DNA from: a bacterium
GTDB lineage: Bacteria > Bacteroidota > Bacteroidia > Flavobacteriales_D > Sanyastnellaceae
NCBI GenBank assembly: GCA_029979565.1
Contig: JAPOHG010000019.1
Location: 1 to 36,866 of the forward strand
Reading direction: 5' to 3'
DNA length: 36,866 nucleotides
A model generated the notes under the pieces. That model ran no database searches, had not been told where the DNA came from, and was given only the letters and a program-made list of their open reading frames with translations. A program made the position numbers and the translations under genes. Shown in pieces: positions 26,261-35,530 of this stretch. Numbering within the stretch: the first letter of the stretch is position 1; each line of letters begins with the position of its first letter.

Positions 26261-27535
26261 TTATTCAGACTTATCGGCCATGAGGTGGCTGCAAACCAGA
26301 GCGACGACCAATCCAATGCCCAATCCCTTGAGCAAGTCGATGAAGACAATGGCCAATATGGTCACCACAAACGGAATGAAGTGCTTCATGCCGCTTTCAT
26401 AGATACGCTTGAACGTAGCGGGCTTAGCAAGCTTATACCCCACTACAAAGAGCACCGCCGCGAGACTGCCCAATGGAATGTAGGTAAGGAGCGTAGGCGC
26501 CAACAAGAAGAACAAAAGCAACCACGCACCGTGCAAAATCGCACTGAGCTTGGTGGCGTTTCCCGTCTGAATATTGGCAGAAGAGCGCACAATCACCTGG
26601 GTAATCGGCAAGCCACCAATCAATCCGCTTACGGTATTACCGACCCCTTGAGCCAGCAGTTCCCGGTTGGTGGGCGTAACACGTTGCTCCGGATCCAGCT
26701 TATCCGTCGCCTCGACACACAGCAAGGTTTCCAAACTCGCAACCACTGCGATGGTCGCCGCGAGAATCCAAATTGCGCTGTCGCCGATGGCGGAGAAATC
26801 AGGGAACGTTAACAGTGAACCCCATGCCGATGGATCAATGCCGTCAGCAGCATGGCCTGTTGGTACTTCGACCAGTTGTTTCGTCGTCAAGGCACCGTCT
26901 CCGTTGCGCGTGATGAGGTGGACCACAATCCCCGCTAGGACCGCTGTCAATGAACCCGACAGCACCTTGGTGAACTTCTGGGCCTTCATGAACGACGTTT
27001 CCCACGAGATCAAGATGGCGAGGCACACGAACGTGACCACAGTCGCCGTCGCCGAGGCGTAGCTGATGTTGTCACCAAGTAGCAACAGCACATCAAAAAC
27101 CTTGTCAGCCTTGGTGGTTCCCTCTGCGCCGGCATAGCCCAAGCCATGGGGGATTTGCTTGATGAAAATGATGATGCCAATGGCGGCCAACATCCCTTGG
27201 ATGACGCTGGAAGGAAAGTACTTTCCGACCACGCCGGCCTTGACAATACCCAACACCAACTGAGCCAATCCACCGATGACTACGGCTAATAAAAAAGCTT
27301 CAAAGCCGACCTCTTGAATGCCGTCATATACAATAACCGCCAGGCCAGCCGCCGGTCCGGATACGCCAACATGGCTTCCGGAAATGGGTGCAACAATAAG
27401 TCCGCCAATGATGCCGGCAATCAAGCCGGCGATGGGCTCTGCGCCCGAGGCCAATGCAATGCCCAGGCAGAGAGGCAGTGCGACCAAAAAAACAACCAAG
27501 GATGCTGGAGCATCCTTTCCAATATGCTGAAACAT
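26261..27535 (-). CDS. SulP-family anion transporter without STAS domain
   Basis: A 424-residue inner-membrane transporter with about 12-14 helices. The N-terminus (ALPLCLGIALASGAEPIAGL) and the SGSHVGVSGPAAGLAVIV motif (residues about 52-70) are typical of SulP, as is the ETLLCVEATDKL segment (about 270) and GGLPITQVIVRSSANIQTGN (about 303-322). Most SulP proteins carry a cytoplasmic STAS domain; this one stops after the last helix (HLMADKSE), so it is the short form. In Bacteroidota and cyanobacteria similar proteins import bicarbonate with sodium; sulfate is the other usual substrate. A carbonic anhydrase gene is not seen nearby. It lies between a small acidic exported protein and a Kazal lipoprotein. 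Confidence 0.9.
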   Translation of the reverse strand: MFQHIGKDAPASLVVFLVALPLCLGIALASGAEPIAGLIAGIIGGLIVAPISGSHVGVSGPAAGLAVIVYDGIQEVGFEAFLLAVVIGGLAQLVLGIVKAGVVGKYFPSSVIQGMLAAIGIIIFIKQIPHGLGYAGAEGTTKADKVFDVLLLLGDNISYASATATVVTFVCLAILISWETSFMKAQKFTKVLSGSLTAVLAGIVVHLITRNGDGALTTKQLVEVPTGHAADGIDPSAWGSLLTFPDFSAIGDSAIWILAATIAVVASLETLLCVEATDKLDPEQRVTPTNRELLAQGVGNTVSGLIGGLPITQVIVRSSANIQTGNATKLSAILHGAWLLLFFLLAPTLLTYIPLGSLAAVLFVVGYKLAKPATFKRIYESGMKHFIPFVVTILAIVFIDLLKGLGIGLVVALVCSHLMADKSE

Positions 27536-27992: not shown

Positions 27993-28457
27993 CTAGCGGA
28001 AATAGACCACACGCCAGAGATGCATCAACGAACCGGCGAGGGTCACCGCCGCAAAAACGAGATGATACGGAAGCCATTTTCGGCTTTGTTCCTTGATCGA
28101 CACCCAAGAGCCAAATACCAGTGAAGCGAAAAGAGCAAGTGGCAGGAAGCCGAGCAGTCCGTAACCCAGCTGCAGCGAATGAACCAAGGCCAGCAGAGGC
28201 ACGGCCCAAGCCAATGCTTGATGAACCTCCACCCAATCGTCCCACTGCGCCCCCTGTTTTTGGTACACCAAGCGTCCAATGGAAAGCGCCCACTGCGCAA
28301 GGATGGACACAAGAAGCGCACTCCCTGTCCAATTTCGAAATGCATCACCCTGTTGGAAGTCCATATCGATGAACCCGAACTTGGACAGAACTGTCCCAAT
28401 GAGCAAGCCCATCAGGCACCCCCAAATCCATACCAATTGCCGCTTAAGGTTGGTCAT
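27993..28457 (-). CDS. Four-helix membrane protein with diheme b-cytochrome His pairs
   Basis: A 154-residue membrane protein with four transmembrane helices (about 7-27, 45-65, 77-110 as one long hairpin region, and 130-150). Two helices each hold a pair of His residues 14 positions apart: His-x13-His in VHQALAWAVPLLALVHS and in YHLVFAAVTLAGSLMHLW. Such spacing, one pair near each end of two helices, is the mark of diheme b cytochromes (b561 and ferric-reductase-like families), so two hemes stacked across the membrane are likely. The start overlaps the end of the monoheme DUF3365 gene by 14 nt. It probably passes electrons across the inner membrane for the redox proteins encoded upstream; the heme assignment is inference from His spacing. 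Confidence 0.7.
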   Translation of the reverse strand: MTNLKRQLVWIWGCLMGLLIGTVLSKFGFIDMDFQQGDAFRNWTGSALLVSILAQWALSIGRLVYQKQGAQWDDWVEVHQALAWAVPLLALVHSLQLGYGLLGFLPLALFASLVFGSWVSIKEQSRKWLPYHLVFAAVTLAGSLMHLWRVVYFR

Positions 28458-29274
28458 CGATGTTGAGTATGCTGGCCATCAAATGCACCGCTGCCAATTC
28501 GGCCACACTGTCTTGAAACGTCTTTACGTCCGGAATGAAGGCTCCTTGGGAAGGCCACCCAACGCCAATGGCAGGTTGCTCACTTGGATCCATGGCTTGG
28601 ATCTCATCGAGGTACCGGGACCAGACAGAGGACACCCCGGACCGATATGCCTTGAGCATATCAACGAGTTCATCGGTCGTCACCGAATCGCCGGGATACG
28701 ACCACGTGGTAGCGCCCATCAGATCCCCGAGTTGCCAATCGGACTTCGAGGTACGTTCGTGCTCGTTGTGGCAAGAAACACAGGCCGCTGCTGAAGCGAA
28801 ATCCGGGTACATGCCGATGGTCTCGTTGGTCACCTCATCCATAAAGTACTGCGGAGAGCGGTCTTCCCGCATAAGCGCGAAGGCCTCTGCCTGACGCCCT
28901 TGAAATTGATTGGATGCCTCAATGGGGAAATCCGAACCTAGGTACAGCCCCAGGGGCACGTCGCTCGCCTTCAGTTCATCTGCAACTCCGCGCAAAAACA
29001 GTGCTGGAAGCGGTCCGGCGATGACCTCCGGGTCGGCCCAACGTTCCGAAAAAGCGAGGCCTCGAGGCTTTCCGGCACCGACGATGGCCTTGGTGTAGAG
29101 GGTGCGCGTCACATCGTTTTCCAGCGCCAACATGGCCATGGCCTCCTGTGTCGAATAGGACTTCACCGCGGCATCGGTTGCTAGAAGCGGAACCGGTGCT
29201 GAAAAAAACAGGTACCCCATAACCCCGACAAATCCCATCGACGACAACACCCAGAACTTTGTGACTCTGTTCAT
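28444..29274 (-). CDS. Membrane-anchored Tll0287-like (DUF3365) c-heme protein
   Basis: A 276-residue protein beginning at ATG 29274 with an N-terminal hydrophobic segment (about 7-27) that acts as signal or anchor. Residues about 35-195 match the Tll0287-like heme domain (DUF3365): a YLGSDFPIEASNQ segment, FMDEVTNETIGMYPDF, and the heme c motif Cys165-Val-Ser-Cys168-His169 followed by DWQLGDLMGATTWSYP, which is the usual conserved end. These periplasmic monoheme domains occur alone or as sensory domains; here no signalling domain is attached, so a redox carrier or sensor role is likely. The 80-residue C-terminal region is unassigned. It lies between the beta-barrel and the diheme b-type gene, 11 nt after the barrel stop. 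Confidence 0.83.
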   Translation of the reverse strand: MNRVTKFWVLSSMGFVGVMGYLFFSAPVPLLATDAAVKSYSTQEAMAMLALENDVTRTLYTKAIVGAGKPRGLAFSERWADPEVIAGPLPALFLRGVADELKASDVPLGLYLGSDFPIEASNQFQGRQAEAFALMREDRSPQYFMDEVTNETIGMYPDFASAAACVSCHNEHERTSKSDWQLGDLMGATTWSYPGDSVTTDELVDMLKAYRSGVSSVWSRYLDEIQAMDPSEQPAIGVGWPSQGAFIPDVKTFQDSVAELAAVHLMASILNIDDQP

Positions 29275-29285
29275 GCTTGCGAGGT

Positions 29286-30482
29286 TTACAGCCGAATCGT
29301 CGGCGAAAAATTCAGTGCAATCCAACCCCACTGTTGCCATCCATTCTCAATGGCAGTTCGGTTCTGGGATGCGTACATCGCATCGGTCGCGGTCATAACG
29401 GACCAACCGAAGGACGCTTTTACAAATTCAGTGGGATTGAATACGAGCACCGCGTCCAACTCATTGGCGAACAATGCGTCGAATGATGAACGGTAGAAGC
29501 GGTGGTACCGCACGTCCCACTTGGCTTTCCACGCTGCCTTTCCAAAAGGCCTTGACCAGTGCACCCGCGCATCGGCCATGCCATTGGCTGGGATGCCAAC
29601 GTAAAATTGGTCCATCCACCCGTAGTGGCGGTGGTTGGTGCCCAAGAAGGGATGGAACGCTCGGCCTCTGTTATCCCCTTCGAGCCAATCCAAAGCCACC
29701 AATGCCTTTCCCATTGCACTCGACGTGTAGTGCAACTCTGCCACGCCCATGTAGGACGCCGGCTGGCCGTTCGATTGTTCTTGCACGTAGCCTTCAACGA
29801 CCCATGAAACGACCTCGCCTCTGGCTTTACCGGTCCATGTCGCTCCGGCCGTGACGACCGAAGCCGTTGGATCCAGGGAGTTCTTCTGGTTGAAATAAAG
29901 AATTGAAATCCGATTCCGCTCACTGGCATAGACGTGGTACCCCATGATTCGGGTCAAACCGGCAGGAGCGTCCCAGGTCAAGGCGGCTGTTGTGGTGCCG
30001 ATGGCCGTGGATTGGTCCCAACGGAGTCCATCGAGGAATCGACCGTATTGCGACCAATTTACTGCGCCAACAATGCGTTCGTTGTCAAAGGCGATACGCT
30101 GACGCCCGGCTGTGAAGCGGGTGTTGGCATTCGGTTTCCATGCGCCCCATGATTCGGTCGCCGCAAATGCTCCGTAGCCCGCCGTGTTGCCGGCCATGTC
30201 CCCAAACGTGCGAACATCCTGAAAGCCGAGCCGCACTTCCCATTTTTCGGTGCCGTGGTGCCAGGTTAAGCGGGTGCGTTGCATGGTGAGCAACTCCCCT
30301 GCGTCGCCCGGTTGCCGCAATCGCTTGTACCCGTCTCGCCATTCCGAGCGCGGGCGCACTTGAAGTATGATACGGTCCTCCTCACTTGGCTTTTCTTGGG
30401 CGTGGGAGGCATCGGCGCACGCCAACAAACCACCTAAAATCAAGGCTCCCAACCTCAGCCAACTGTCCAATCTAGTCTTCAT
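29286..30482 (-). CDS. Outer-membrane beta-barrel protein, alginate-export-like
   Basis: A 398-residue protein with a signal peptide (residues 1-29, DASHAQ) and alternating polar and aromatic strands throughout (for example RTRLTWHHGTEKWEVRLGFQ, ARVHWSRPFGKAAWKAKWDV), ending in an aromatic strand (WQQWGWIALNFSPTIRL). This is the pattern of an outer-membrane barrel of about 16-18 strands, close to the alginate-export/porin-like group (MQRTRLTW, GRQRIAFDNERIVG are typical). Start ATG 30482 overlaps the end of the fusion cytochrome gene by 11 nt. As it is embedded in a redox operon it might act as a pore holding a cytochrome, or as a solute porin; sequence alone does not decide. No heme motif is present. 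Confidence 0.8.
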   Translation of the reverse strand: MKTRLDSWLRLGALILGGLLACADASHAQEKPSEEDRIILQVRPRSEWRDGYKRLRQPGDAGELLTMQRTRLTWHHGTEKWEVRLGFQDVRTFGDMAGNTAGYGAFAATESWGAWKPNANTRFTAGRQRIAFDNERIVGAVNWSQYGRFLDGLRWDQSTAIGTTTAALTWDAPAGLTRIMGYHVYASERNRISILYFNQKNSLDPTASVVTAGATWTGKARGEVVSWVVEGYVQEQSNGQPASYMGVAELHYTSSAMGKALVALDWLEGDNRGRAFHPFLGTNHRHYGWMDQFYVGIPANGMADARVHWSRPFGKAAWKAKWDVRYHRFYRSSFDALFANELDAVLVFNPTEFVKASFGWSVMTATDAMYASQNRTAIENGWQQWGWIALNFSPTIRL

Positions 30483-32064
30483 TTTTTGCGTTGTATCGCT
30501 TTCCGTTTCCATACGGGTCCAATCCGCCCTCAAAGTAATCGCGCACTTCGGATTCTCGCAACCTATTGGCCATGCGCGTCGGTACTTCGTACATGTGATT
30601 TCCGTGAAAATCATGGCACGTCAAGCACGTGGACCATTGTCCGGATTCAGCCAATTCGGCGTGGGGCACGTCAATCGGGTCATCCACGACCTCCATGGCG
30701 CTGTGGCAATGTTGGCAGTAATCCATTTCAATAACACCGACCCGGGCCCCCGTGTGTTCCCCGTGGCAGTTCGCGCAGCGGTGGACACCAATGGCCTCTC
30801 GCTGTGCGGCGAACCGCAGCTCTTCGAAGCGTGTGACCGGATGGCGATCGTTCGGACGTTCGTGGCACGACTGGCAGGCTGCATTGTCCACTTCCGCATA
30901 ACCCACCGGCACCCAATCGTGCCCGTGCAAGGCAACAGCGGTTCGAGCATTGTGGGCCAGTTGTTGGCGCAACGAACCGGGCGCCTTCTTATGGCAGGAC
31001 TCGCATTTCAAGTTGGAATGCCCGGTATTCATACTGCCTTTCGACGACAGTCCAGTTCCCGGTGAAACATTCCAAAAACCGAAGAATACCACCCCAATAA
31101 CCAAGGCGGCTGCGTACCACTGCGACCGGTTCAATCGGTTTGCCGGTCCCAGCAGTGCCTGTTCACCTTCCATTGCCGTGGTGGTGCAAGTCGTCACGCG
31201 GTCGCCCGCACGTTGAACCTTTCCATTGCACTGAACGCGTCCTTCAAGCACCCGGGCTTCACAGGTACCGCAAGCGCCGACCAAACAAGCCGCATCCAAT
31301 CGAACGCCTCGTGCTTGCAACGCCGTGAGCACCGTGTGGTTCGATGCTACCTGAACTTCCTGTTTTCTACCAAACAAGCCCTTCCAAGCCACCTTGCCTG
31401 CATTGGACGTCGAGGCCCTTTGACCATACGATTCCATGCGAATGGATTCAGCAGGAACTCCAAATGTCCCGAGCTTGTCCACTACCGCTCGATTCATGGC
31501 TTCAGGACCGCAGATGTAGGCCGCAGCTTCTTCAAAATCTTCTGGCCTGAGGCCGTCAAGCAGCGTCCTGCCAATAAACTCATGAAGATCCAACTGACCG
31601 GTATCGGCGAGCTGCCGCAATTCCGATCCAAACATCACCTCATCCGCTGATGCGTTTCCATAGTACAACGATGGGCGCACCCCCTCCTGCACCAACTGTT
31701 GAATCAAGCAATAAATCGGACTGATTCCACTGCCACCTGCCACAAAGGTGTGTTGCGAAAACTCCCTATTGAGGGCAAAAGCACCAAAAGGACCAGCCAC
31801 GCGAACCGGAGTGCGCTCGTCCAGCTCGCAGAGCCATTCACTCACGCCACCCTTGCGTGCCTCCTTGACCCCCAAGCGCCAGTGGTCTGCTTCTATTCCG
31901 CTCAGCGAAAACGATGCCCGTTGCGGCGCGCGATTGACCTGGGCTTCGAGTACTACAAATTGACCGGGATGCGCCTCCGGCATACCGCCGCGGATATCCA
32001 ACCGCAATTCGACCGCTCGACCGGTGAGCCTTTTTACCCGTTCTATGTACCCTTTTCGCCACAT
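30472..32064 (-). CDS. NAD(P)H/FAD reductase - [2Fe-2S] ferredoxin - TM - pentaheme cytochrome c fusion
   Basis: A 530-residue redox fusion. Residues 1-95 form an FNR-type FAD domain (RASFSLS at 49-55), 105-215 an NAD(P)-binding domain (VAGGSGISP at 108-116, CGPEAM at 185-190), and 235-305 a plant-type ferredoxin with Cys260-x4-Cys265-x2-Cys268 and a fourth Cys at 293. One hydrophobic helix (about 316-333) follows, and then a periplasmic-type domain with five c-heme motifs: CESCH 354, CQSCH 397, CANCH 430, CQHCH 450 and CLTCH 480. The topology should be N-in, C-out, since hemes c are attached in the periplasm. The protein has no N-terminal signal peptide. It heads a minus-strand run containing the barrel, the DUF3365 protein and the diheme b protein. 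Electrons would flow from NAD(P)H via FAD and FeS to periplasmic hemes, or the reverse. The physiological partner is unknown. Confidence 0.88.
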   Translation of the reverse strand: MWRKGYIERVKRLTGRAVELRLDIRGGMPEAHPGQFVVLEAQVNRAPQRASFSLSGIEADHWRLGVKEARKGGVSEWLCELDERTPVRVAGPFGAFALNREFSQHTFVAGGSGISPIYCLIQQLVQEGVRPSLYYGNASADEVMFGSELRQLADTGQLDLHEFIGRTLLDGLRPEDFEEAAAYICGPEAMNRAVVDKLGTFGVPAESIRMESYGQRASTSNAGKVAWKGLFGRKQEVQVASNHTVLTALQARGVRLDAACLVGACGTCEARVLEGRVQCNGKVQRAGDRVTTCTTTAMEGEQALLGPANRLNRSQWYAAALVIGVVFFGFWNVSPGTGLSSKGSMNTGHSNLKCESCHKKAPGSLRQQLAHNARTAVALHGHDWVPVGYAEVDNAACQSCHERPNDRHPVTRFEELRFAAQREAIGVHRCANCHGEHTGARVGVIEMDYCQHCHSAMEVVDDPIDVPHAELAESGQWSTCLTCHDFHGNHMYEVPTRMANRLRESEVRDYFEGGLDPYGNGKRYNAKNED

Positions 32065-32150
32065 GGGAAGGCGAATTTAATTCCTTCCTTGCAATGCGCT
32101 GAACATCATCCGCTTACGCGTGTTATTATTTTGATTTGCAGTACATTACC

Positions 32151-32999
32151 ATGAAGTCTTTTTTGCTCGATAGCGCCAACGCTGTACTCTCCGAATCCAC
32201 CCGGTCCCGTGTGGAACGCGGGCTGGTCGGCTTGGCTTTGGGTATGTTCATGTTGCACCTGCTGCTCTATGGCATCAACCTCATTTTTGAATTCAACTGG
32301 CCGGCTGCCTACTTCAGCCACCCCTTGCAGACGTTGTACACCCCTTTCTCTGCTATTCTGGTAGCCGAGGTGTACTTGCTGATCCACTACCTCCCAACTT
32401 CTTTTGCTCGGTCCATGGGCAAGCAAATGGAAATTGTAGCCCTGATTGAAATCCGGTCGGTATTCAAAGACGTGGACTTCACCACGAAATGGCCGTGGGA
32501 TGCGGATTTCTTTCCGCACTTGATGGGCGCCATGGTTGTCGGCAGCATCCTCGTCGCTTTCTACCGTGTGTTGCCCCGAAGGATTGCGCGCATCGAGGAA
32601 TTGGAGCTTCAGCGTTTCATCGAATTCAAAAAAATCCTGGCTGGGTTCCTGTTCGCCTACCTGATTTTCTTGAGCGGCTGGTCGTTCTTCACCTGGGCAT
32701 ATGACCTCTACGCCGGTTCAGACTGGGCCCTTCACGACCCCAATGACTTCTTCTACAACGACTTTTTCACGGCGCTGATTCTGGTGGACGTCTTGCTGTT
32801 GGTCATTTCCTTTCGGTACCTGTCCGACTTCGGCTTGGTGTTCCGCAATTGTGGGTTCATCATCAGCACCATCCTACTGCGCCGTGCATTGGTCATCGAA
32901 CCCTGGCATGCGCTAGCGTACGAAGCCACCAGCGCCTTGTTGGCACTCCTTGTACTGTTATTGCACCGAGGGTTGACAAGCAAAGACCCTGAGGAATAA
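32151..32999 (+). CDS. Polytopic membrane protein of unknown function
   Basis: A 282-residue protein beginning at ATG 32151 with about seven hydrophobic helices (around residues 25-48, 62-84, 123-143, 165-187, 207-227, 235-250 and 258-276). There are no convincing conserved motifs, heme His pairs or known transporter signatures; some scattered Trp, Tyr and His residues lie between helices. It is divergent from the redox operon with an 86-base gap and converges on the asparaginase-like gene with an 11-base gap. A role in the same redox process is possible but unsupported. I do not recognise the family. Confidence 0.7.
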   Translation: MKSFLLDSANAVLSESTRSRVERGLVGLALGMFMLHLLLYGINLIFEFNWPAAYFSHPLQTLYTPFSAILVAEVYLLIHYLPTSFARSMGKQMEIVALIEIRSVFKDVDFTTKWPWDADFFPHLMGAMVVGSILVAFYRVLPRRIARIEELELQRFIEFKKILAGFLFAYLIFLSGWSFFTWAYDLYAGSDWALHDPNDFFYNDFFTALILVDVLLLVISFRYLSDFGLVFRNCGFIISTILLRRALVIEPWHALAYEATSALLALLVLLLHRGLTSKDPEE

Positions 33000-34055: not shown

Positions 34056-35459
34056 TCATATTGTTGGCTTTCGCCCAGACACAAACAACTTTCCATTGTG
34101 GGCTTCCACCCCGACCTCTTGATCGTAACCGATGGTGGTCATTTCGATGTCCTCAAACCCTGCTTCCTCCATCAATGACCTCAAACGGTCTGAGGAGCAA
34201 TAATGCAAAAAGGCCACGTGCTCTCCTCGGGTCCTTCGGTAAAAAACATCCCCCTCTTCATACCCCTGCTGACCAAGGCGCTGGTCGCGAAATTGCTGCA
34301 GGGCCTCTGGGCCCCACTCGTGTTCGTCCTGCACATCAAAGGCATCGAAATAAAACCGCCCACCTGGATTGAGCATCCTGAAGGAGGCCTCGATGACACA
34401 ACGTCGCGTTTCCCGGTTCGGCAAGTGGCCATAGGCATATAACAAGGTCACGGCGTCGTACGAAGTACCTTCAATAAATTTCTGCGGGTGGCGTAAAGAG
34501 GCTACCTGCACATCCACATCGCGCTCGGCGGCTTGGGTCGCCATCTCCTCGCACATGTCCACTCCTTCCATGGCGTAGTCCAACTCCGATTCATCCCGGA
34601 TGTCCACCGCGCGCCGACCCGTCCCGCAGGCGAGGTGCATGACGCGTTCTACTGGCTTGGATTGGGCGAGCGATTGCAGACCCTGTGCTACTAAGCGATC
34701 TATGGCTGAGGTATACCGCCGGCGTTTTTGAATTTGCGCATCCAAGGCGTCGTATTGGTTCGCATGCTCAGCGAAATAGCCTTCGATCATTCGTTCAATG
34801 GCTGCCGCATCCGGCTTGGGGACAATGTTGCATTGCAGGTGCGAGGCTTCCGGAAGGGGCGCGTAACGGAAGGCCTCTTGTTGTATACCCCGGTAATTCG
34901 AAGGCGGCAAATGGATGGAAGCCGTGGGAGCGGTTTTGTTGCAGGTGAAAGCGGAGCCGGTGGCTAGGTCGTACAACACCAGCCCGTCCAAATCTTCCAA
35001 GGCGGGGTGGTAAAAATGCAGGGTCACCAATGCATCCTGATCGCTCCCGTTTCGAATCTTGTGAATCGTACCGTCGGGCTCGGGTACGATGCCTTTCGGT
35101 AGTGCGCGCAAAACATCCTTTTCACTGAGCACGCCATCCGCGAGGTTGTACGTCACATTTTCAAGAACCCCTTGCAGGCATACCACAGTGCCCCAAAATC
35201 CCTCGTGGTGATGAACGGCACTCTCCACACCAGCAGGCCAATGCAGCAAGACCACCTCAAAAGGCTCAAGGCACAAAATGTTGCGGGCATAATTGTCCTC
35301 CTTTTCAACTTCCGGGACGTGTTCGGCCCAATCGCTCTGGGTCCAGTCGATGCCTTCGACCCAGCTACACAACCCTTCGTACGTCAGTGGTTGGGGTGCG
35401 GTCCGGGCCAGGTTGGCACAGAGGTCCTTGAGCTTGATGGGGATTGGAACTGCAGGCAT
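34056..35459 (-). CDS. Cysteine dioxygenase-like cupin fused to SAM methyltransferase
   Basis: A 467-residue fusion. ATG 35459 is chosen; an in-frame TTG at 35528 would add 23 residues and sit next to the GH16 gene. Residues 1-180 match type I cysteine dioxygenase: iron ligands His83 and His85 in VHHHEG, His133 in GTIHKIRN, and the Ser/Thr-x-His-x-Tyr triad as Thr146, His148 and Tyr150 in VTLHFYHP. The crosslinking Cys position is Gly in FWGTV, as in bacterial forms. Residues about 220-467 form a class I SAM-dependent methyltransferase with motif I HLACGTGRR (about 275-282), an acidic post-motif, and SFRMLNPGGRFYFDAF (about 375). The substrate is presumably a thiol such as cysteine or a mercapto acid; the methyl acceptor is unknown. 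It is probably co-transcribed with the isoaspartyl peptidase gene. Confidence 0.85.
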   Translation of the reverse strand: MPAVPIPIKLKDLCANLARTAPQPLTYEGLCSWVEGIDWTQSDWAEHVPEVEKEDNYARNILCLEPFEVVLLHWPAGVESAVHHHEGFWGTVVCLQGVLENVTYNLADGVLSEKDVLRALPKGIVPEPDGTIHKIRNGSDQDALVTLHFYHPALEDLDGLVLYDLATGSAFTCNKTAPTASIHLPPSNYRGIQQEAFRYAPLPEASHLQCNIVPKPDAAAIERMIEGYFAEHANQYDALDAQIQKRRRYTSAIDRLVAQGLQSLAQSKPVERVMHLACGTGRRAVDIRDESELDYAMEGVDMCEEMATQAAERDVDVQVASLRHPQKFIEGTSYDAVTLLYAYGHLPNRETRRCVIEASFRMLNPGGRFYFDAFDVQDEHEWGPEALQQFRDQRLGQQGYEEGDVFYRRTRGEHVAFLHYCSSDRLRSLMEEAGFEDIEMTTIGYDQEVGVEAHNGKLFVSGRKPTI

Positions 35460-35530
35460 GGGTTGGTTTGCTACATCCGACAAGATAGGCGGCCTGCATT
35501 CCCCCTTCCAAATTGGCGTATCTTTCAAGT
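35460..35530. promoter_or_regulatory. Short divergent region between dioxygenase fusion and GH16 gene
   Basis: This 71-base stretch must hold both promoters if the genes are transcribed separately. On the minus strand a TTTG (35512-35509) is followed after 21 bases by a poor -7 match TATCTTGT (35487-35480), which could serve the dioxygenase gene. For GH16 only a partial TATCTTTC next to the ATG is seen. Weak evidence. Confidence 0.25.

Follow-up and report, generated by a model that had tools for sequence, protein, structure and literature searches.

A flavin reductase-ferredoxin-pentaheme cytochrome c fusion and its conserved operon partners in a Sanyastnellaceae bacterium

A fused gene and its operon

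The window analyzed here is the whole stretch of 36,866 nucleotides of contig JAPOHG010000019.1 (assembly GCA_029979565.1), from a Bacteroidota bacterium of the Sanyastnellaceae. On its minus strand lies an operon in the order fus-barrel-tll-cyb (Table 1), in which the start of barrel overlaps the stop of fus by 11 bases, tll starts 11 bases past the barrel stop, and the start of cyb overlaps the tll stop by 14 bases. The first gene, fus, runs as a single frame of 530 codons from an ATG at 32064 to a TAG stop at 30474-30472 and encodes in one protein an FNR-type flavin reductase, a ferredoxin, a membrane helix and a pentaheme cytochrome c. Gene order and fusion are read directly from the DNA. 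We propose that the operon probably encodes a membrane-spanning electron chain, which would lead from NAD(P)H through FAD, a [2Fe-2S] center and two b hemes to c hemes in the periplasm.

Table 1. Features of the fus operon in the window (ORF, open reading frame; AF2, AlphaFold2 model).
Feature	Position	Strand	Basis
fus, 530-aa FNR-ferredoxin / helix / pentaheme c fusion	30472..32064	-	ORF, Pfam, alignment, Foldseek
Fus FAD and NAD(P) binding domains, residues 1-220	31405..32064	-	Pfam, NCBIfam, AF2, Foldseek
Fus plant-type [2Fe-2S] ferredoxin domain, residues 230-300, Cys 260, 265, 268, 293	31165..31377	-	Fer2 (3.6e-9)
Fus single membrane helix, residues 313-333, no His	31066..31128	-	AF2 helix 313-331, charge bias, sequence
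Fus pentaheme region, residues 349-490, with five CXXCH motifs and six other invariant His	30595..31020	-	81/81 sequences
barrel, predicted outer-membrane barrel, alginate-export related, signal-peptide-like start	29286..30482	-	Identity to cluster C4 members
tll, membrane-anchored Tll0287-like (sCache_heme) monoheme c protein	28444..29274	-	PF11845
cyb, 154-aa five-helix protein, candidate diheme b carrier, His 79/93 (helix 3) and 132/146 (helix 5)	27993..28457	-	Alignment, AF2

Two samples of relatives underlie the counts given below. One holds 100 genomes around the window, its own genome included; the fused gene is present in eight of them (the carriers, several of which are incomplete, at 73-99%), and the copy of one, G018, has a divergent N-terminal part. 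The other is a wider scan with one genome per species, from which the best 80 of 236 relatives were kept as the 80 loci and scored with profiles of the four parts (FNR, pentaheme or pent, tll and cyb); seven of these come from genomes that are also in the first sample. Clusters of neighboring genes were defined by similarity, with a Pfam check on one member each, and their counts are limited by contig ends and are lower bounds because genes behind overlapping frames are missed (cluster C2 was found in 70 loci, as against cyb in 79 by profile).

The first 300 residues of Fus are organized as in FNR-ferredoxin proteins of the PDR class, with an FAD domain, an NAD(P) domain carrying GGSGI.P and CGP, and a C-terminal Fer2 domain with four Cys. 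The Pfam models NAD_binding_1 (residues 107-194, 1.1e-8) and Fer2 (residues 232-297) match over their cut-offs, and FAD_binding_6 matches weakly, below its own (0.0088). With the NCBIfam model PaaE (TIGR02160) the E value was 7.5e-30 and the score 103.9 bits, below the curated cut-off of 420.8; judged by its sequence, the reductase part is a fold relative of PaaE and not PaaE itself. The AF2 model has block means of pLDDT of 88-98 over residues 1-300, except for 59 at residues 211-220, and in Foldseek it matched the phthalate dioxygenase reductase 2PIA with an E value of 8.1e-20. The four ferredoxin Cys are invariant in the 23 fused sequences, and each is kept in 71 or 72 of 72 sequences overall.

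Around the single helix of Fus the charges are biased, with a mean of 3.1 Lys plus Arg before it and 1.1 after it in the 23 fused sequences, which fits the N-in/C-out topology put forward when this stretch was first read (hereafter, the original prediction). That prediction had described the reductase motifs, the ferredoxin, one helix and five CXXCH in a single 530-residue frame, leaving its strand unsaid, and the ORF, Pfam and AF2 results bear it out. It had also taken the protein for a candidate conduit from NAD(P)H to the periplasm, with which our results agree, the electron flow itself being what we infer, and had doubted that Fus alone moves electrons across the membrane through a helix that has no heme. 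The doubt was right. A heme within this helix is ruled out by the lack of His in it, the mean being 0.04 His over the fused sequences, and a neighboring protein, Cyb, is the likely partner that crosses the membrane.

In the pentaheme region the Pfam model Cytochrom_c3_2 matches residues 350-455 over its cut-off (3e-6), and the five CXXCH motifs stand at residues 354, 397, 430, 450 and 480. The ten heme Cys and five proximal His are invariant in all 81 sequences (the window and the 80 loci), as are the further His 349, 408, 437, 468, 487 and 490, a degree of conservation beyond chance; going by this alignment, the supply of His is enough for bis-His ligation at all five hemes. Six residues other than His (R403, D406, E436, D462, D485 and N489) are invariant in the same 81 sequences, perhaps beyond the needs of a plain wire, and so leave room for a catalytic role.

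The barrel gene of the window has no Pfam match itself. It is 70% identical to the C4 member of locus L030, the nearest relative fetched (labelled uncultured Flavobacteriales bacterium), and 25% identical (2.7e-23) to that of L063, which in turn matches Alginate_exp with 1.2e-11. The gene is optional, being labelled in at least 14 of the 25 loci of fused architecture; among the 11 unlabelled ones, L035 has a gap of barrel size. Tll of the window matches PF11845 with 5.1e-6 and 27.4 bits, over the cut-off of 24.1, and its CXXCH is present in 78 of 79 aligned sequences, the remaining row being a gap. It has two Cys only, both within CXXCH, and no other Cys is invariant in 27 aligned sequences. 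A sequence search of the PDB with the Tll profile gave chance-level matches only, and NCBIfam at E <= 0.01 gave no match for the barrel, Tll or Cyb proteins of either the window or L063.

Fused, split and FNR-less loci

The 80 loci fall into 25 of fused architecture, 46 with separate FNR and pentaheme genes in one cluster and nine in which the stretch seen shows no FNR gene. Besides 22 intact genes of full length, the fused class includes L042, where the contig breaks off within fus, and two genes with a broken frame (L045:5677-7323 and L060:1928-3374), in which sequencing error and decay are indistinguishable; L060 was counted as fused, and before this reassignment the figures were 24 fused and 47 split. 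The draft state of the genome of the window (1.96 Mb in 96 contigs, 79.6% complete) favors the explanation, already considered in the original prediction, that misassembly or a frameshift joined two genes. But the search for other proteins of the same domain order that it had suggested gave 22 full-length single-frame relatives besides the window, at 29-56% identity; these refute an assembly join, to which we give virtually no chance. The further thought that close homologues might always be two genes fails for the closer homologues, which are fused, and holds for the 46 split loci.

In the split loci, mostly of Flavobacteriaceae, cyb is followed after 6-57 bases by the start of the FNR gene without exception (46/46, from aligned starts), and the spacing between the FNR and pentaheme genes is 32-52 bases (from aligned ends) in 44 of the 46; in L089 and L097 it is 2.8 and 3.0 kb, the two genes of L089 being separated by one for cytochrome c assembly. 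Stand-alone pentaheme proteins begin with a basic stretch followed by an anchor helix in seven of the eight N-termini inspected, the eighth, L095, having a long frame start and an unclear true start. The fusion would thus have placed the FNR-ferredoxin part where a short basic cytoplasmic tail had been. Nine FNR-less loci keep pent-tll-cyb; eight of them (L086, L087, L090, L092, L095, L098, L103 and L105) belong to Methylococcaceae/Methylococcales, Methylomirabilota and Nitrospirota, and Sporocytophaga is also represented.

A tree of Tll, built from the window and 78 tll genes (a fragment, the 79th, was dropped), and to be read with a warning of long branches, puts the split loci on the same side of a branch with good support (100/95). 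Its topology weakly favors one origin of the fusion (64/16). The fused form of an Allomuricauda isolate (L057, 5887-8893) groups with a Saprospiraceae sequence (100/100), which suggests, on the strength of the tree, horizontal transfer.

The linkage between the parts is a direct observation: 79 of the 80 loci, across four phyla, have tll and cyb together with pent, the exception being L042 at its contig edge. In the 100 genomes, near-full-length cyb occurs in exactly the eight with the fused gene; G003 and G025 have weak short matches that look like chance. The tll gene is in all eight carriers (8 of 10 genomes searched) and was found in neither G013 nor G030. G013 (L029:7626-9762) has kept the barrel gene but lacks tll and cyb on one flank of it and most of fus on the other, where only the last fus codons (37 by blastp, 62 by tblastn) still adjoin the barrel gene; no copy of tll or cyb turned up in the rest of this genome, which is 84% complete. 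The genome of the window also has two Cytochrom_C_asm matches over the cut-off.

Three other genes were noted around the operon. A gene for a SulP-type anion transporter (26264-27535, minus strand) lies 457 bases downstream of cyb, with a homologue in the same stretch of G006, G016 and G013. A 287-aa protein without a Pfam match is encoded divergently from fus (32136-32996, plus strand) and is 88% identical in G006 and 95% identical in G013; since it is kept in G013, it is not tied to the cassette. Farther away (34059-35528, minus strand), a single frame matches cysteine dioxygenase (CDO_I, 1.6e-7) and, after it, a methyltransferase domain (5.8e-12), which is an unusual pairing.

The distribution of the FNR gene bears on whether the two ends of Fus communicate at all. 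The FNR-ferredoxin part might serve cytoplasmic partners, while the pentaheme, Cyb and Tll would form a quinol-driven periplasmic chain and the fusion would merely co-locate the two. The nine loci in which pent-tll-cyb is retained and the stretch seen holds no FNR gene speak for such a separation, and so does PaaE as the best, if sub-cut-off, NCBIfam match of Fus, the normal customers of PaaE-type reductases being cytoplasmic oxygenases. A flavoprotein of Bradyrhizobium is likewise described as serving a globin and NasC (accessible text of PMC4724949). Set against this are the retention of the fusion in 22 other intact loci, the position of the FNR gene within 57 bases after cyb in every split locus, and the absence from the 100 relatives, at E <= 0.001, of any globin that the FNR-ferredoxin part could serve. 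We regard the separation as unlikely and keep to a chain that runs through both ends.

Cyb as a candidate carrier across the membrane

In Cyb, His 79, 93, 132 and 146 are invariant in all 79 loci that have the gene, and each pair on one helix has the spacing H-x13-H. Among 59 aligned sequences only six columns are invariant, namely these four His, G45 and Q55. The AF2 model (pLDDT 94, pTM 0.88) shows five long helices, of which helix 3 (70-93) bears one His pair and helix 5 (125-152) the other. Loops 2-3 and 4-5 are basic (mean Lys plus Arg of 3.3 and 2.1 in the 59 sequences), and the other loops are poor in these residues. By the positive-inside rule the N-terminus would be inside, so that H79 and H132 would lie on the inner side of the membrane and H93 and H146 on the outer side.

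This is the plan of the FRD superfamily, in which two His pairs of the form H-x12/14-H stand on two helices, in SpNOX helices 3 and 5. The accessible text on SpNOX gives two hemes bound by H69/H129 and H82/H142 on TM3 and TM5 (PMC11031084), and a survey of bacterial NOX proteins, in the part available, used His-X12/14-His as a filter (PMC5676040). By this analogy Cyb has the architecture of FRD proteins of the NOX/MsrQ type, and its binding of heme b is predicted. The doubt raised by the heme-less helix of Fus would then be answered by Cyb, with no heme needed in that helix.

Several results weigh against this assignment and against the chain as a whole. On sequence, homology of Cyb to the FRD superfamily (Ferric_reduct; NOX, MsrQ and STEAP) is not proven. 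The Ferric_reduct model of Pfam matches 37 of 59 Cyb sequences at E <= 0.1, the best with 1.9e-5, at shifting positions; the value for the window (0.012) is below the cut-off, and in a rerun of ten sequences at E <= 0.01 two matched, in different places (45-94 in L094, 104-156 in L050). Foldseek gave nothing at E <= 0.001 for Cyb, the best NOX entry having an E value of 0.75 at rank 3 after two talin domains, and the PDB sequence search with the Cyb profile gave no match. In hhalign against single E. coli sequences, the E value for MsrQ (0.12) did not improve on that for the b561-type YodB (0.049), both being weak, and an unrelated kinase gave 0.68. Structure prediction of Fus, which the original prediction had proposed, succeeded for helix 313-331 and residues 1-300, but the heme part was modeled with poor confidence. 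G030, which is 98% complete, has a partial cyb at a contig start with neither fus nor tll found; this may be a gap at the contig end or a cyb without the rest, the latter being a case against strict linkage. Finally, the FNR-less loci may have another source of electrons, for example quinol. Matches to DUF1259 in 8 of the 59 Cyb sequences were taken as chance.

Weighing these points, we still consider the following path probable. NAD(P)H would be oxidized at the FAD of the cytoplasmic N-terminal part of Fus, which would hand single electrons to its own [2Fe-2S] center. Cyb, whose two b hemes, each ligated by two His, would be stacked through the membrane (inner H79/H132, outer H93/H146), would move electrons outward as does the membrane part of NOX or MsrQ. 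The outer heme of Cyb would reduce the pentaheme tail of Fus, tethered at the same site by the single helix, and the tail would pass electrons to the Tll0287-like monoheme protein and on to a periplasmic acceptor. The ligands and topology signals in this path are observed; the occupancy by heme, the direction of electrons, the contacts between the proteins and the acceptor are what we infer.

As the parts of the chain are reversible in principle, electrons might also run inward, the pentaheme collecting them from outside and the FNR part making NAD(P)H or reduced ferredoxin; a barrel gene in or beside the operon in at least 14 of 25 fused loci would suit such an import. FNR-ferredoxin modules of the dioxygenase-reductase type, however, take electrons from NAD(P)H and send them outward, the barrel belongs to the alginate-export type, no outer-surface multiheme gene is present in the operon of the window and 11 of the 25 fused loci have no labelled barrel. 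Inward flow is therefore very improbable, and outward flow through Cyb is the direction that we retain.

The acceptor and known systems

What the chain would reduce is suggested chiefly by the split loci. Many copies in Flavobacteriaceae of the Maribacter, Aquimarina and Polaribacter type sit among genes of nitrate assimilation. A globin gene is found in 44 of the 46 split loci, and in 41 it shares the strand of tll and stands no more than 274 bases upstream of it; an NMT1_2-type ABC transporter occurs in 30, a Crp-type regulator in 32 and a molybdopterin reductase/NirB-like cluster (C9) in 18. In two fused loci, L048 and L061, a globin gene directly follows cyb. These neighbors suggest a possible role mainly in the periplasmic reduction or detoxification of N-oxides (nitric oxide, NO, or nitrite) at the expense of NAD(P)H, with the catalytic site at an open or weakly ligated heme of Tll or at one of the five hemes. 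Such a role is compatible with the path proposed above, to which it adds an acceptor.

Parallels from other proteins add to this lead. In the accessible text of PMC4724949, a globin-flavoprotein pair of the nitrate assimilation operon of Bradyrhizobium detoxifies NO. A 2026 preprint, as far as its text was available (PMC12889525), names the Tll0287-like family sCache_heme, gives Cys/His ligation for the heme of Tll0287, assigns redox roles to the 'Cluster 1' members that have no signalling module, and reports tight binding of NO by the signalling-linked member tested but weak binding by the stand-alone member tested. Since Tll of the window has no further Cys, Cys/His ligation as in Tll0287 is impossible and the distal ligand must differ; conservation in both the pentaheme and Tll goes beyond the heme ligands.

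Against the lead stand, in addition to the weak binding of the stand-alone protein, several counts. No globin was found at E <= 0.001 in the 100 relatives, the eight carriers included (the control matched in 3 of 14), and a globin gene lies in the stretch in only 2 of 25 fused loci and none of the nine FNR-less ones. None of the eight carriers reached the cut-off for NirK or that for NirB, and at E <= 0.001 the NirK model matches 47 of the 100 genomes and the NirB model all 13 searched (the carriers and five others), matches that we took for paralogues. In the pentaheme no CXXCK was found in any of the 81 sequences, and His suffice for all five hemes. On the cut-offs, NirK, NirB and globin were rejected as shared partners for the window lineage, and nitrate assimilation as a shared role is disfavored, the search in that lineage having left aside nitrate reductase, NirA and nitrate transporters. 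The evidence suggests N-oxide reduction as a lead and not as a shown shared function, and we hold it as a tentative possibility. It is doubtful that all parts come true together, that is, that the loci encode an undescribed NAD(P)H-driven transmembrane chain made up of a reductase of the ferredoxin type, a split NOX-like protein with two b hemes and pentaheme and monoheme c proteins, reducing NO or nitrite in the periplasm, of which the window would be the state with inner and outer ends in one polypeptide.

To our knowledge, routes by which electrons of NAD(P)H reach the periplasm independently of the quinone pool are few. If Cyb is of the kind proposed, the loci would add one more, in four phyla, and the existence of fused and split forms makes the logic of the chain testable in cultured Flavobacteriaceae (Maribacter, Aquimarina and Polaribacter).

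Among known systems, phthalate dioxygenase reductase and PaaE have the layout of the N-terminal part of Fus, an FAD and an NAD domain with a [2Fe-2S] ferredoxin at the C-terminal end; these are soluble enzymes that supply oxygenases, whereas in Fus the ferredoxin is followed by a helix and then by five hemes. Systems of the NrfA/NrfH, CymA/NapC, Cbc and Mtr type likewise bring electrons into the periplasm through membrane-anchored c hemes, but their source is quinol. NrfA has an active-site heme at CXXCK, although CXXCH variants exist too, and all five sites of the pentaheme are CXXCH. Conduits of the MtrCAB type hold a decaheme inside an outer-membrane barrel together with a decaheme on the outer surface; the operon of the window includes a gene for a barrel but none for such cytochromes.

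Tll resembles the sCache_heme family in its PF11845 match with CXXCH and resembles Cluster 1, as described in the available part of PMC12889525, in having no signalling module; it differs in the absence of an extra Cys and in standing beside pent and cyb. The narK-bjgb-flp-nasC genes of Bradyrhizobium share with the split loci of Flavobacteriaceae the nitrate assimilation genes, a single-domain globin and an NAD(P)H flavoprotein, but they are cytoplasmic, and the accessible text notes no comparable genes for b-heme or c-heme proteins (PMC4724949).

Close parallels are also MsrPQ with Fre of E. coli, NOX and SpNOX, in which, according to the parts of the papers available, an FNR-type NAD(P)H reductase passes electrons to a membrane protein with two stacked b hemes and on to an acceptor beyond the cytoplasmic membrane, with His-X12/14-His pairs on two helices (PMC5676040, PMC11031084). 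The chain proposed for the window differs in having a ferredoxin between the flavin and the b hemes, and in that its reductase is covalently joined to the pentaheme of the acceptor side and not to the candidate b-heme part; SpNOX has six helices and Cyb five, and their sequence homology is not significant. Our literature search, partly aimed elsewhere and largely without subscription papers, gave no description of this gene set or fusion among the matches listed. The parts are all of familiar classes; what is new, within the reach of these searches, is the combination, the joining of an inner reductase to an outer pentaheme and the conserved b-heme candidate beside it.

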